In this document: in pieces, positions 42,815 to 59,714 of the stretch | How positions within the stretch are numbered: position 1 is the stretch's first letter | How the letters are laid out: each line of letters opens with the position of its first letter | NCBI GenBank assembly: GCA_003176045.1 | Contig: PSRM01000182.1 | Coordinates: 1-64,000 of the forward strand | DNA length: 64,000 nt | Source of the DNA: Verrucomicrobiota bacterium | GTDB lineage: Bacteria > Verrucomicrobiota > Verrucomicrobiia > Limisphaerales > UBA8199 | Reading direction: 5' to 3' | Notes under the pieces: generated by a model | What the model saw: the letters and a program-made list of their open reading frames with translations, nothing else | What the model was told of the DNA's origin: nothing | Database searches by the model: none | Program-made: the position numbers and the translations under genes

Positions 42815-44722
42815 TCAGGGTGCCTTTTCTTTCCTGCGGTCCAGCAGGCGCTGGAGCGTTGCGGGCAGAGGCGCGGGATTAGTGGCCATGATGGAACAGA
42901 GGCCGGCGGGAAATTGAGGCGACTCCAGCCAGTTGGCCAGCAGGTCCATCTCGATGGAGGTAAGGCCCACAGAAGATTTGCGGGCGAAGCTCAGGCGGTT
43001 GGTGTCGGCCAGTTTGATCTCCGTGGCCGCGTAGGTAAGATTGGTCAGGTTGTTCAGGATCCAGTTATAGCTAAGCGTCTCGTCAGATACCCGCAGGCGT
43101 TGGCGATCAAATATGATGCGATAAACGTCGTCCAGGTAGCGCCAGTGCGAAAGGCGGGGGCCGGTCCGTTCCCAATCGTAATACACCAGGTCCGGAGCCA
43201 GAGCCAGGTGGTCCAGGAACTCCATGGGAATGCTTCGATTGGTGCGAATCACGAAAAAGTCCGGCCCAAAACCGCCGTACAGAAACTGTGTGGATGCTGG
43301 ACTATTGGATGGTTGGATGGTTGGATTGGCGGAGTTGGTAACTACTTGGAGAAATGGGGTGAAGTGGGGCACACCATTCCAAACCAGTTTATTGGGGTTG
43401 TTTGTCTCAAAGGCAAACGAGCCGTAGGAAGAATGAAGGAGAGGATTGACCGTCTGAATCAAAGCAGGCGCGAGGACACTGAAAAGGTTGGAAGCCTGAT
43501 CCGACGCCAGGGCGAAGTAGTTGTAGAGCGGGAGGCGGCCGTCGTCCCAGAAGAAGGCCTGCGGCACGGAGGAAGATAGCAGATGGAAGATGTCAGGTGC
43601 GGATGGTTGGTTGGATGGATTGCTTGGGGAGGGCTGGGATGCTGAAATGCTGGAATGTTGGAATGATGCAAGGAGAGGACCCAGGCCGCGGACACTAGTG
43701 AACCCGACGAGGGCGCGGGTGATGAGGTTTGTGGGCACAATCCAGGGCGGGAGTGCCATACCGAGAGATTGAGGAAAGGTGAACTCGCCACGGGTGCGGA
43801 CCGAGTCGCCATCGCCGAAGATACGGAGAGTGACGAGCGGGAGGATCGGGAAGACCGTTCGAGGGTCGGAGCTTGGAGCGTGGAGCGTGGTCATTTTGGC
43901 GAGGTCGAGGTCGCCTTCGAGCCAGAAATTGGTTTGAACCAAGCCGCCCGGCTCATTCTGCGAATGGGAGGGGTGAGGGGATAACCAGTCAGTCGGCAAA
44001 GGGCTGCGGTTGCTCTGGATGCGCGACTGGATTTCGGAGAGAAGAGGGGAGGAGGATGAGGAGGAGAGGGTGAGGAGAGACCAGGGGCTGAGACGTGAAA
44101 CGTGAAACGTGAAGCGTGAAACGGCAGTCGTGGTCTGTGGTCCGTGGTCTGACAGCAGATTTGTGATCGCCTCTGCGAGAATCGGCGAATTGGATTGCCA
44201 GAGGGCGGCGCGGGCGTCGTTCAGGCGGATGGCCAGGACGCTTTCCGGAGGCTGGTTGGCGGAGAATTGACGCAGCTCCAGGTAGGACTCGGAGAGAACG
44301 AGGTCGTCCAGGAGGGGGCGGATGCTGGATGTTGGATACTGGATACTGGATGGGGCGGTGTTCGACGAAGTGGACGACAAAGTGTCCTGCGGTCTTGCGA
44401 GAAAGGCGGCGATCTTATCCAGAGTCTGGGCTTCAAGGCGGGCGGTCTCGATTTGCCGCCAGAAGCGCATCAGGCCGGCGGAGTTAGTGTCGGCGGCGAC
44501 GCCGTCTTTGCCCAGCCAATGAATGCGGGCAATGACAGGAGATTGCGCCGCGGTTTGAGCCGGCGCAGGAGAGCCGGATTTACCGCAGCCGGAGACAAGG
44601 CAGAGAAGGACCACAAGACCACAAGACCACGAGACTACTGACCACGGACCACAGACCACGGACCATGGAGGACGGTTCAAACGCCTGCCTCCCTGAGAAA
44701 ACCCGAGACATCTCATGCACAT
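42815..44722 (-). CDS. Hypothetical lipoprotein with many array-derived segments
   Basis: Long ORF; lipobox-like LVVLLCLVSGCGKSGS; start at 44722 (MCMRCLGF) preferred over TTG at 44767. Confidence 0.7.
   Translation of the reverse strand: MCMRCLGFSQGGRRLNRPPWSVVCGPWSVVSWSCGLVVLLCLVSGCGKSGSPAPAQTAAQSPVIARIHWLGKDGVAADTNSAGLMRFWRQIETARLEAQTLDKIAAFLARPQDTLSSTSSNTAPSSIQYPTSSIRPLLDDLVLSESYLELRQFSANQPPESVLAIRLNDARAALWQSNSPILAEAITNLLSDHGPQTTTAVSRFTFHVSRLSPWSLLTLSSSSSSPLLSEIQSRIQSNRSPLPTDWLSPHPSHSQNEPGGLVQTNFWLEGDLDLAKMTTLHAPSSDPRTVFPILPLVTLRIFGDGDSVRTRGEFTFPQSLGMALPPWIVPTNLITRALVGFTSVRGLGPLLASFQHSSISASQPSPSNPSNQPSAPDIFHLLSSSVPQAFFWDDGRLPLYNYFALASDQASNLFSVLAPALIQTVNPLLHSSYGSFAFETNNPNKLVWNGVPHFTPFLQVVTNSANPTIQPSNSPASTQFLYGGFGPDFFVIRTNRSIPMEFLDHLALAPDLVYYDWERTGPRLSHWRYLDDVYRIIFDRQRLRVSDETLSYNWILNNLTNLTYAATEIKLADTNRLSFARKSSVGLTSIEMDLLANWLESPQFPAGLCSIMATNPAPLPATLQRLLDRRKEKAP
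44608..44667. repeat. (gaccaca/gaccacg)n heptamer array overlapping lipoprotein signal peptide
   Basis: gaccacaagaccacaagaccacgagactactgaccacggaccacagaccacggaccatgg. Confidence 0.85.
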
Positions 44723-44770
44723 AGAGTCGAGCCTTTTACACAAAAATGGTTCCGGGAGCAAACCCAAAGC

Positions 44771-45310
44771 ATTTTAGATTTAGTCATTTTAGATTTTAGA
44801 TTTACCGAAAAAGCCCGGGTCGGCTTCTTGCATCCAATCCAAAAACCAAAATCTTCAATGTAAATTAGCCTTTGCCGTGTTCAGTGAACTGCTGAAGATG
44901 GCACAAAGCTCGTCCGCTTCTTTCCATAGCGGCTGAATTCGAGCAGGTTTCATGAGGCCGCTTTCCATTAGGACCTCCAGCCAGAAGGCGCTCTCGTCGG
45001 CTTCCTCAAGCACGGTCCCCATCTTGGCAATGAAATCCGCCTTTGATTTCGCACGGCAAACGGCGCGATAATTGGCGCCTACGGACGAACCAGCTTTCAT
45101 TAGCTGATTCCCGATTACCTTTCCCGGCTCATTCCTCGGCAAGGCAAGCACGAGCTTGATAATTCGCAGTGCAAACTTCTTCGTTCTGGCTTTCATCTCT
45201 GTCTCATTCATAGGTTTTTTCATTTTGGATGTTGGATTTTCTGCTCGCTAGCAAATCGCTAAACGCAGTTCTTTTTTCAATCTAAAATCTAAAATCTGCA
45301 ATCTAAAATC
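44771..45310. mobile_element. Putative IVS-like cassette: S23 four-helix-bundle gene between inverted heptamer arrays (copy A)
   Basis: Left arm attttagatttagtcattttagattttagattta (44771-44804); right arm aatctaaaatctaaaatctgcaatctaaaatc (45279-45310), near-perfect reverse complement. Confidence 0.5.
44855..45223 (-). CDS. Four-helix-bundle protein, S23/IVP family
   Basis: RTKKFALRIIKLVLALPRNEPGKVIGNQLMKAGSSVGANYRAVCRAKSKADFIAKMGTVLEEADESAFWLEVLMESGL: S23 family pattern. Confidence 0.92.
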   Translation of the reverse strand: MKKPMNETEMKARTKKFALRIIKLVLALPRNEPGKVIGNQLMKAGSSVGANYRAVCRAKSKADFIAKMGTVLEEADESAFWLEVLMESGLMKPARIQPLWKEADELCAIFSSSLNTAKANLH

Positions 45311-47515
45311 CTATCTCCCCTGCCTCAGTCTGGCCACTATCGCGAGCTGGGCGTTGGCGTCGTTGGTGCGGCCTTTGGTGAGGAGGGCGTAGGCCAGATT
45401 CTCGCGGGCGGAGAGGTCGGTGGGGGCCAAATCCACCGCGATCCGGAGCTGATCAATGGCATCGTCCACGCGCCCAGCCGTGCCCAGGGCGATGCCGAGG
45501 TTGCGATGCGCGCCGGCAAAGTTGGGCATGAGTTTGACGGCTTGTTCTGAGTGATAAATGGACTCGTTAAGGCGGCCCTTCCGGAACAAGGCCAGGCCGA
45601 GGTTGCCGTGCGCGAGGGCGTAATCCGGGTCGGCGTCCACGGCGGCCTGGTATTCGCGGATGGCGTCGTCTTCGAGTTGGGAGATTTGGCTGCGCAACCG
45701 GGCTTGTTCGGCGGGGGCAAGTGTTTTAGGCAGGAGAAGCCTGAAAGAGACAGCTTTTTGGTTGAGTTCGGCGGCGAGATTTTGGTGGGCGAGCGCATTG
45801 TCGCGGGTGACGGCGATGGCGTGGCCATAGAGCCTAAAGGTGTCGTGCCAGACCTGTACCTGGCCGCGTGAGAGCACACAGCAGACGGAAAGAGCCGCGA
45901 CAGCGAGAGCCCCGGGCGTGAAACGTGAAACGTAAAAGGGGAAAGGGGAAACGCGATGCGCCGAAGGATGCTGCGGGCCAGCAGAACCTTGAACTTTGAA
46001 CCTTGAACCTCGAACTTTGAACTCAGCAAAAGTCCAAACGACGGCGATAAATATCCCAATAAGCGGTATATAAGTGTAGCGATCGGCGTGGGCCTGGGCT
46101 CCGACCTGAAGCAGGCCGATGACTGGCAGGAGGGTGATAATGTACCAGAGCCAGCCGACGGCAGACCACGGACCACATACCGCAGTCCAAAGGCCTCGAT
46201 CATACGCTAACGGCGACCCCTGAACCTTGAACCTTGAACCTTGAACTTTGAACAGGATCCAAAAGGCCGCAATGGTCAGAAGCAGCCCAACCAAGCCGAA
46301 GGCGATTGTGAGCAAGAGAGAGAAGGTTTTTGGGTAGCTGTAAAAGACGGCGAGGCGCGCGGGCCACACGGTCTGGAAGAGGTACTCGAGGTAAGAGTGG
46401 ATGGCGTTTTCGAAGCGATAGAGGACGGAATAACGGGCGCCGGTTTGAAGCGCGCCGGCTTGTTTCTGGGCGATGATGGTGACGATGCCGGCAGCGAAAG
46501 AAAGGGCGAAGAAGGGAAGCTTCTCTAAAACGAGACCACTGACCACTGACCACTGACCACCCCGCCAGCGCGGTTCTGAGCAAGAACTTTGAACCTTAAG
46601 CCTTGAACCTTGAACTTTGAGCTGACTTTCGGGCGCTGGGGGATCGAAACCTTGGACTTTGGACTTCTTGTCCGCCGAAGCTTTAGCGAAGGTGGAGGGA
46701 CTTTGGACTCGGTTGAGCGGCCAAAAATCCAGCAGTAAAAGCACGAGTGGAAGAGTGACAAGCATGGTTTTGCACATCAGGCCGAGGGTGAAGAGTAAAA
46801 GGGCGCTGAGGTACCAGAGCAAAGGCCTCTGAAACTGGCGAATTAGGAGAAAACCTTGAACCTTGAACTTTGAACCTTGAACTTTGAACTCGCTCCATCG
46901 CCCTTCGCCGCTCGCCACACAGTTCGAATATGCAAGCACAGTCAGAAGGAAGAACAACGTGGAGAGCGTGTCCTTCCGTTCGGCCGCCCATGCAACGGAC
47001 TCGACGTGGAGGGGGTGGACCGCGAAAAAGGCGGCCACAAAAAAGGCAGGCCACGGCGGAGATGGAATGATGGAATGGTGGAATGATGGAATAGCGGATG
47101 AAAGCTGAAGGAGGAGGAAGAAGAGTAATAGCGTGTTGCCGGCATGGAGCACGAGACTGGTGAGATGGTGGCCCCAGGCGGCCTGGCCGAAGAGTTGGCA
47201 ATCGGTCATAATCGACAGCCAGGTGATGGGGTGCCAGAATCCACCTTGGAGAGTAGTAAACGCCCAGCGGAGATTGTCCCACGCAAGCCCGCTCAAGACG
47301 TGGGGATTGCGGTAAATGTAGGTGGGGTCGTCGTAATTGACGAAGCCATTTCGGAACAGGGGCCAAAAAGTGCCGGCGGTCAGGAGCAACAGCAACAAAG
47401 CGAGGATCAGAGGATGCCCATCGCGGAACGGCTTCAAAAGCGACTTCAAAACGAGGGAGAGTTTAGCAGAAGCAGGAAACCGCGAAATGCGCGAAATACG
47501 CGGAACTGGAGACAC
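45311..47515 (-). CDS. Multi-TM protein with C-terminal tetratricopeptide repeats (PMT-like plus TPR)
   Basis: NYDDPTYIYRNPHVLSGLAWDNLRWAFT, AFFAVHPLHVESVAWAAERKDTLSTLFFLLTVLAY; C-terminal TPRs (DPDYALAHGNLGLALFRKGRLNESIYHSEQAVKLMPNFAGAHRNLGIAL). N-terminus uncertain. Confidence 0.88.
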   Translation of the reverse strand: MSPVPRISRISRFPASAKLSLVLKSLLKPFRDGHPLILALLLLLLTAGTFWPLFRNGFVNYDDPTYIYRNPHVLSGLAWDNLRWAFTTLQGGFWHPITWLSIMTDCQLFGQAAWGHHLTSLVLHAGNTLLLFFLLLQLSSAIPSFHHSIIPSPPWPAFFVAAFFAVHPLHVESVAWAAERKDTLSTLFFLLTVLAYSNCVASGEGRWSEFKVQGSKFKVQGFLLIRQFQRPLLWYLSALLLFTLGLMCKTMLVTLPLVLLLLDFWPLNRVQSPSTFAKASADKKSKVQGFDPPAPESQLKVQGSRLKVQSSCSEPRWRGGQWSVVSGLVLEKLPFFALSFAAGIVTIIAQKQAGALQTGARYSVLYRFENAIHSYLEYLFQTVWPARLAVFYSYPKTFSLLLTIAFGLVGLLLTIAAFWILFKVQGSRFKVQGSPLAYDRGLWTAVCGPWSAVGWLWYIITLLPVIGLLQVGAQAHADRYTYIPLIGIFIAVVWTFAEFKVRGSRFKVQGSAGPQHPSAHRVSPFPFYVSRFTPGALAVAALSVCCVLSRGQVQVWHDTFRLYGHAIAVTRDNALAHQNLAAELNQKAVSFRLLLPKTLAPAEQARLRSQISQLEDDAIREYQAAVDADPDYALAHGNLGLALFRKGRLNESIYHSEQAVKLMPNFAGAHRNLGIALGTAGRVDDAIDQLRIAVDLAPTDLSARENLAYALLTKGRTNDANAQLAIVARLRQGR
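45985..46022. repeat. Heptamer array in TPR-protein gene
   Basis: aaccttgaactttgaaccttgaacctcgaactttgaac; encodes [13 protein letters not shown]. Confidence 0.92.
46222..46253. repeat. Heptamer array in TPR-protein gene
   Basis: gaaccttgaaccttgaaccttgaactttgaac; encodes [13 protein letters not shown]. Confidence 0.92.
46534..46560. repeat. (gaccact)4 heptamer array in TPR-protein gene
   Basis: gaccact gaccact gaccact gaccac; encodes GGQWSVVSGLV. Confidence 0.95.
46852..46890. repeat. Heptamer array in TPR-protein gene
   Basis: aaccttgaaccttgaactttgaaccttgaactttgaact; encodes [13 protein letters not shown]. Confidence 0.92.
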
Positions 47516-53465: not shown

Positions 53466-53500
53466 AATTTATGATTTATGAATTATGATTTATGATTTTT
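53466..53500. repeat. (atttatg)n array 3' of solute-binding-protein gene
   Basis: aatttatgatttatgaattatgatttatgattttt. Confidence 0.85.
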
Positions 53501-54908: not shown

Positions 54909-54956
54909 CCTTCACGCCATCGCTACGCGATGCCACCATACGGCCTCTCCGCTCGT

Positions 54957-54981
54957 AAATCATAAATCATAAATCATAAAT
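54957..54981. repeat. (atcataa)n array 5' of solute-binding-protein gene
   Basis: aaatcataaatcataaatcataaat; reverse complement of the 53466-53500 array. Confidence 0.88.
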
Positions 54982-59079: not shown

Positions 59080-59714
59080 GTTGAAGGTTGAAAGTTAAAA
59101 GTTGAAGGTTGGTCAACCGTTACCGTTGGCGTGAAAGGCGCCTGGCATTCGTTCGAACCCTTTCCAGATAGTCTATGAACTTAGCTATTCGACGTGACAG
59201 GGTCAGGCATGATTCACGCAGCGCCTCGAATTTTTTCTGGTCAATGTACTGCTGGTCTAGTGCAACGTAGAGTTGGGATCGGACTTCGCCATTTGAACCT
59301 TTGGCGATGTTCAGGAAATGAATGAATTCTTTGCGAGTCCCGCGTTCGAAGCCCTCTGCGATGTTCGACATGGTCGAAGTGGAGGCGCGGATAATTTGAT
59401 CTTTCAGCGTGAAATCGCGACGAAATAATCGCTCCTTCGTTATGTCGTAAATACGGTTTACTAAAACGCGCGCTTCCTGCCAAACCTTCAGATCTTCGAA
59501 TTGTTTTGCCGTAGCCATAGATTTTTATCCTCGTTAAATGTTTGTCGTATTTGTCGTATTTGTTCAGTAGGAGTGAATGAAATGAGTGTTGAATTTGCAA
59601 TCTTAAGTTTATTCAACCAAGCCATTAACCTGCCTTCAGCCAAGAGGCGTTTGCGCAGACCTCAGACTCGACAAACGGAATGAACCTTCAACCTGTAACC
59701 TTCAACTTTCAACT
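59080..59714. mobile_element. Putative IVS-like cassette: S23 four-helix-bundle gene between inverted heptamer arrays (copy B)
   Basis: Left arm gttgaaggttgaaagttaaaagttgaaggttg (59080-59111); right arm aaccttcaacctgtaaccttcaactttcaact (59683-59714), near-perfect reverse complement. Confidence 0.5.
59120..59518 (-). CDS. Four-helix-bundle protein, S23/IVP family
   Basis: KQFEDLKVWQEARVLVNRIYDITKERLFRRDFTLKDQIIRASTSTMSNIAEGFERGTRKEFIHFLNIAKGSNGEVRSQLYVALDQQYI: classic S23 pattern. Confidence 0.95.
   Translation of the reverse strand: MATAKQFEDLKVWQEARVLVNRIYDITKERLFRRDFTLKDQIIRASTSTMSNIAEGFERGTRKEFIHFLNIAKGSNGEVRSQLYVALDQQYIDQKKFEALRESCLTLSRRIAKFIDYLERVRTNARRLSRQR

Follow-up and report, generated by a model that had tools for sequence, protein, structure and literature searches.

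In the 64-kb stretch of DNA analysed here (the window), a gene of the S23 protein family is enclosed by inverted tandem arrays of a short unit and placed directly behind the stop codon of a protein gene, and the same architecture recurs throughout the source genome, its family and more than ten phyla. Judging from sequence comparison, we consider it likely (probability roughly 0.75) that this architecture represents a mobile element system in which S23 acts in trans as an array-recognising protein, with an organisation like that of REPIN/RAYT but without a recombinase. To our knowledge, S23 proteins have no known function, even though they are widespread in bacteria and have been represented by structures since 2006; nor do we know of a cause for the over-representation of heptameric repeats in many bacterial genomes. 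The proposed system would join these two puzzles. It would give a large orphan family a function that can be tested, would probably account for a class of microsatellite-like repeats in bacteria, some of them translated as extra peptide in proteins, and might explain how rRNA intervening sequences arose.

Copies A and B in the window

The S23 gene of copy A (44855-45223, minus strand) encodes 122 amino acids. In profile searches its sole Pfam match is 23S_rRNA_IVP (PF05635; 49.0 bits, cut-off 33.8), and it also matches TIGR02436 (76.9 bits, cut-off 24). In the sense of the element, the upstream arm (45279-45310, minus strand) reads as five units, GATTTTA-GATTGCA-GATTTTA-GATTTTA-GATT, and the downstream arm (44771-44804, plus strand) holds about five GATTTTA-like units inverted with respect to it, so that the element spans 540 bp. 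The first-pass annotation had placed the gene between inverted arms that match except at a few central positions, and had proposed folding the cassette RNA as a test of end pairing. The open reading frame, both profile matches and the arm positions bear out this layout, and in a predicted fold of the cassette RNA the upstream arm pairs with the downstream arm at 27 of its 32 bases, with one internal loop interrupting the stem at those central positions. Only S23 was identified between the arms; S23 has no known catalytic site and the element encodes no recombinase.

The neighbours of copy A are co-directional protein genes rather than rRNA genes. The annotation had described the arm as adjoining the stop codon of a TPR gene, and this is literally the case: the TPR gene (45311-47515, minus strand) ends in a TAG at 45311-45313, and the distance from this codon to the upstream arm is 0 nt. 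On the other side, a lipoprotein-like gene (42815-44767, minus strand) starts just past the downstream arm. Rfam gave no match anywhere in the window; searches of PHROGs and PADLOC were likewise without a match. Homologs of the lipoprotein gene were found in 12/12 family genomes searched; the TPR gene was not found beside it in these relatives, which hence provide no empty site for copy A. The GATTTTA-type unit has almost no solo copies outside its own arms in a 0.6-Mb sample. The TPR open reading frame itself carries GAACCTT heptamer arrays (window positions 45983-46022, 46220-46253 and 46851-46890) that are translated as peptide inserts, and thus solo arrays are tolerated in coding DNA. Further along the window, an inverted pair of ATTTATG arrays (53467-53498 and 54956-54981), whose unit is that of the S23 element on contig C25, encloses other genes without S23.

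Copy B has the layout of copy A and a different unit, as had been claimed from the two copies. Its S23 gene (59165-59497, minus strand, the extent being that of the profile match) lies between a downstream arm at 59080-59110 (plus strand) and an upstream arm at 59683-59713 (minus strand), both composed of GTTGAAG-type units. Single 7-mer arrays are abundant throughout the window. What is special is the inverted pair enclosing S23, and not the presence of an array as such.

Inverted arms and their units at S23 loci

The source genome (G000; 7.7 Mb in 372 contigs, 86% complete) contains 21 S23 matches in 18 places, and inverted tandem-array arms are present at all 18, with inverted-repeat scores from 17 (copy A, the weakest) to 41 (C12). 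Random spacers of equal length carrying inverted arrays equally often without S23 genes would, according to the first-pass annotation, have refuted its reading; among 20,000 random 320-bp pieces of the source genome, only 0.23% score at least 17, and the reading withstands this test. The unit varies among the 18 loci in both sequence and length (6 to 12 bases), and the two arms of a locus can share non-periodic details, agreeing at 41/41 bases in C12 and 32/32 in C178. At two loci, L032 (contig C235) and L033 (contig C365), two S23 matches stand in tandem and the arms have a 12-base unit.

The architecture extends well beyond this genome. Across the family set, which comprises 13 incomplete multi-contig assemblies, 56 of the 84 S23 loci score at least 17 against a background of 0.14-0.23%. 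Relatives of copy A, found by searching with the copy A and C25 S23 proteins, occur in Verrucomicrobia, Lentisphaerae, Cloacimonadota, Chloroflexi, Acidobacteria, Bacteroidetes, Cyanobacteria, Planctomycetes, Desulfobacterota, Armatimonadetes and others, more than ten phyla in all; 44/80 of the loci in other phyla score at least 17 and 59/80 at least 14, compared with 0.14% and 0.40%, respectively, for background drawn from their contigs. Arms are undetectable at some S23 loci (for example G010:C44 and G009:C34:112591), which may have decayed or been domesticated, or else the association may not be universal.

From copies A and B it had been concluded that the structure and not the sequence is conserved, suggesting a class of elements. 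The 18/18 loci uphold the class; the statement about sequence needs amending, as members of one S23 subfamily have a conserved unit, which is a different one in other subfamilies. The copy A and C25 proteins are 52% identical and their units are GATTTTA and GATTTAT, while the other aligned S23 proteins share 11-17% identity with copy A and have other units. Among the relatives of copy A, the units are mostly variants around GATTNNN or the 8-base GATTTGGT. In the 13 family genomes arm similarity tracks S23 protein similarity to a degree that 0 of 2000 permutations reach: the mean arm score is 15.7 for the closest protein pairs, 3.9 for unrelated pairs and 3.5 in the opposite orientation. Immediately beyond the arms the score is 7.6 for the closest protein pairs, some of which are the same old insertion, and about 5 elsewhere. 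The likeness of arms among close relatives can be due in part to common descent. Below about 60% protein identity the units are often different.

The same dependence is seen in the number of dispersed arrays per genome, counted as exact 21-mer matches that may overlap. The AAACACC 21-mer occurs 282 times in G000, where the C12 S23 has such arms, and 0 times in its 12 relatives. The GTGAAAC 21-mer occurs 216, 209 and 17 times in G000, G008 and G007, all of which have a matching S23, twice in G003, in which no matching S23 was detected, and 0 times in the other nine genomes; a reversed control pattern gave 0 in all genomes. S23 subfamilies thus have repeats that are specific to them, and each of the two units tallied genome by genome is abundant where its matching S23 is present. 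For a further family, AAGGTTC, with 19 dispersed arrays in the 0.6-Mb sample, an S23 with exactly matching arms was not found in the 86%-complete assembly; the C334 unit is one base different.

Probable mobility, placement and proposed arm recognition

Paralogous S23 elements align approximately arm to arm and their homology ends there, over 591 bp for C51a and C51b of G000, 581 bp for C135 and C635 of G003, and 665 bp for G007 C394 and G008 C979, the flanks of which are not colinear, so that this last pair is used for arm-to-arm homology only. C51b is missing at the orthologous site of G007, where 92 bp stand in place of 726 bp. Comparisons between named Nostoc plasmid records give the sharpest boundaries. 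An S23 element of 436 bp with perfect 39-nt ends in pC052_A is lacking in pC052_D, a plasmid of the same strain, and in three others; homology ends exactly at the outer arm edges, a 202-bp segment that the empty-site plasmids have in common stands in the element's place, and an arm provides the stop codon of the upstream gene. A second S23 element, in pC052_D, is cleanly inserted where a stop codon and a start codon meet: it follows the stop codon of one gene immediately, whereas without the element the next gene begins 3 nt after that codon. Each arm of this element is readable as five units. Neither of these two occupied/empty comparisons shows an evident target-site duplication. Plasmid records with an S23 match of the copy A type number 26, and five of these plasmids are typed as conjugative. 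On plasmids such S23 genes recur inside defence-like operons (L318, L322 and L319-L321), in the orders DUF1156 - S23 - Swt1/HEPN and drmD - S23 - MmeI/PglX.

Miniature, gene-less derivatives are also present. The AAACACC arrays of G000 form many inverted pairs, several with a 98-bp offset that defines elements of about 126 bp, and the ends of these miniatures resemble those of the C12 S23 element, including its AGAG/CTCT interruption. G008 contains a family about 100 bp long whose members combine the arm GGGGAAAAGCTGAAATTGGGAAAGCAGAAAGCAGAAAT with a loop of 34 nt and are nearly identical at some ten sites; the loop is found in both orientations, and two members are missing from the orthologous region of G007. 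In the arm GGGGAAAAGCTGAAATTGGGAAAGCAGAAAGCAGAAAT, which is similar to the S23 arms of G007 C394:5973, five GAAA cores stand at spacings of 8, 8, 7 and 7. Four miniatures (L277, L279, L286 and L306) have extra loop sequence, palindromic in L279, which probably represents nested insertions. Overall, S23 and its arms very probably constitute a class of elements that is mobile. We propose that gene-less arms would persist and multiply as miniatures of 100-126 bp and as solo arrays, on which S23 would act in trans.

The position behind a stop codon, noted before at copy A, holds for the class: at 33/54 family loci and at 28/40 loci of other phyla the upstream arm has its outer edge within -15 to +25 nt of the stop of a long same-strand open frame, compared with 4% of random positions. 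By heuristic open-reading-frame calls, 38 cases have both neighbours co-directional with S23 and 2 have both opposed. The enrichment of solo arrays near stop codons is slight (12/84, where about 8% is expected), and the position of S23 elements is therefore probably due to selection for expression and not to target choice. Purifying selection acts on S23, and the protein matters: dN/dS is 0.05-0.18 in most measurable pairs and 0.39 in one very close pair. Together with the placement at stop codons, these low ratios suggest that the elements probably stand where they do because S23 needs to be transcribed by read-through. Full elements would accordingly persist mainly right behind a stop codon between co-directional genes, with S23 expressed by read-through.

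The AF2 monomer model of the copy A protein (pLDDT 96) has four helices, and its best PDB matches are 2rld and 2gsc, followed by Avd in the ribonucleoprotein of a diversity-generating retroelement (DGR). Both 2gsc and 2rld contain five chains, S23 taking the form of a pentameric ring in its known crystal structures, and the former is Xcc0516, an S23 protein of Xanthomonas campestris. Xcc0516 has been reported as a homopentamer (PMC4990558). The number of units per arm among the relatives of copy A has a mode of five (38/87 arms; four units in 19 and six in 15), as does the number per solo array (34/91), while arms at family loci have four units in 34 cases and five in 33. The correspondence between five-chain structures and a mode of about five units makes the binding of one unit per protomer an attractive model; that five is a mode and not a fixed number counts against it, as does the preference of Xanthomonas GGGAATC arrays for four units (PMC4692102). 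Mismatches between arms are concentrated in the spacers, at about 20% in the last two positions and 1-9% elsewhere, as expected of a recognition site. The spacers agree at 0.84 within a locus and at 0.37 between loci, indicating that copying or pairing maintains the likeness of the two arms.

We therefore favour a model in which the element, about 430-700 bp long, has terminal inverted repeats of about five (4-6) units around S23, and S23 would be the cognate recognition protein, with one unit type per subfamily. A pentameric S23 ring may bind one array, with roughly one unit per protomer, and join the two ends, which would probably be brought together as a folded single strand (a hairpin). 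As the element encodes no recombinase, cutting and joining are proposed to be performed by a host enzyme or one acting in trans. The details of this model, namely a ring reading one unit per protomer and a route through single-stranded DNA, are put forward tentatively, and we would place them somewhat below even odds.

The arms could instead function in RNA, forming an RNase III-cut stem in the read-through transcript with S23 bound to that RNA and any movement proceeding via RNA and a reverse transcriptase acting in trans. The pairing of the copy A arms in the predicted RNA is consistent with this, as are the sense orientation of the elements between co-directional genes, the fold that S23 has in common with the reverse-transcriptase-associated Avd, and the terminal stems and heptamers of the Coxiella intervening sequence (PMC4990558). 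Selection for RNA pairing is nevertheless not supported by the arm mismatches, which have no G-U bias (33 G-U-compatible versus 28 incompatible in one comparison and 27 versus 43 in the other); this disfavours RNA pairing as the selected form, and a single-stranded DNA hairpin would be a simpler choice. Miniatures moreover occur in both orientations, and in this incomplete genome reverse transcriptase is matched just once and in part, by a contig-edge fragment below the cut-off (L079, G000 C120:4-258). We consider the RNA-level account unlikely.

It is more doubtful still that S23 is a regulator whose binding targets are the arrays of its own transcript and a regulon of hundreds of dispersed copies, with the arrays serving as operators and not as mobile ends. 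Strong purifying selection on S23, the subfamily-specific units and the read-through position would all suit such a role, whereas the arm-to-arm paralogs, the arm-bounded presence and absence, and the near-identical miniatures at unrelated sites show mobility. Regulation by the protein of a mobile element could coexist with that mobility.

Ownership of the heptamer elements by a RAYT or another transposase, with S23 as a passenger, is very improbable. Y1 transposase genes are present in the genome and the dispersed doublets resemble REPINs, yet the unit co-varies with S23, and none of the five Y1 loci examined has heptamer arms (0/5) while three of the five have inverted repeats of their own; we therefore reject RAYT as the owner. 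The Y1-like genes L313, L314 and L317 (G000 C166, C240 and C150), the last of which is below the Pfam cut-off, have REP-like inverted repeats on either side that bear no relation to the heptamers. Slippage alone, producing microsatellites in or near which S23 merely tends to land, would explain why arrays are abundant genome-wide and variable in copy number, and is rejected as scarcely credible given the inverted matched arms at 18/18 loci against 0.23%, the link between unit and S23 subfamily, and the lack of array families in genomes without the matching S23.

Comparison with known systems

RAYT is thought to act in trans on REPINs, much as we propose for S23 and its miniatures. In REPIN/RAYT systems a protein gene lies between inverted short repeats, subfamilies of the protein are associated with families of the repeat, and many gene-less inverted doublets are dispersed in the genome (PMC3116915). 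S23 elements resemble them in each of these respects, having one gene with inverted repeats, co-assortment of protein and repeat, and gene-less doublets; when the likeness was tested on individual units, the AAACACC miniatures proved to have the ends of the C12 S23 element, while copy A's own unit is rare. They differ in that S23 is not a Y1/HUH transposase, Y1 genes being located elsewhere in the genome, and in that their arms are tandem arrays of 6-12 nt units and not imperfect palindromes. A classical insertion sequence would differ further, as there is no transposase within copy A and a target-site duplication is not evident in the two Nostoc comparisons. With the Avd protein of DGRs, S23 shares a four-helix-bundle fold (8ub7, TM 0.73; 4dwl, TM 0.69), whereas the copy A locus has no reverse transcriptase, the one fragment being on another contig.

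Intervening sequences of 23S rRNA are the other close relation. The Coxiella intervening sequence with an S23 open reading frame has terminal inverted repeats, and heptamers beside the S23 start codon (PMC4990558). The likeness to copy A consists of the S23 family, the heptamers and terminal inverted repeats able to form a stem (27/32 in copy A); copy A differs in being located between protein genes, in a window without an Rfam match, and the S23 class differs in its subfamily-specific arrays and miniature derivatives. As the defining test for REPIN/RAYT and that for intervening sequences each come out negative, we conclude that the S23 element class is new and separate from both, a conclusion that would be weakened if intervening sequences prove to be members. 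In the open-access literature we found no paper linking S23 to tandem arrays; an earlier description in subscription papers is possible. In its broadest form our proposal is of a recombinase-less class in which a pentameric S23 ring would read about five units per end and move the element and its miniatures via a folded single strand with a borrowed enzyme, many heptamer arrays would be footprints, and the rRNA intervening sequence would be a special case; this is speculative, and we hold it to be possible rather than probable.

Dispersed 7-mer arrays have been described independently, with the units GGGAATC in Xanthomonas, GGGGAYT in Nostoc and TAACTGA in Beggiatoaceae (PMC4692102, PMC4679880). 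The Xanthomonas GGGAATC arrays include 70 inverted pairs, favour four units and have a sense-strand preference for stop codons (PMC4692102). No cognate protein is named for any of these repeats in the accessible portions of the two reports. By analogy with the elements analysed here, and given that Xanthomonas campestris carries Xcc0516, the GGGAATC arrays look like an S23 system seen without its protein.
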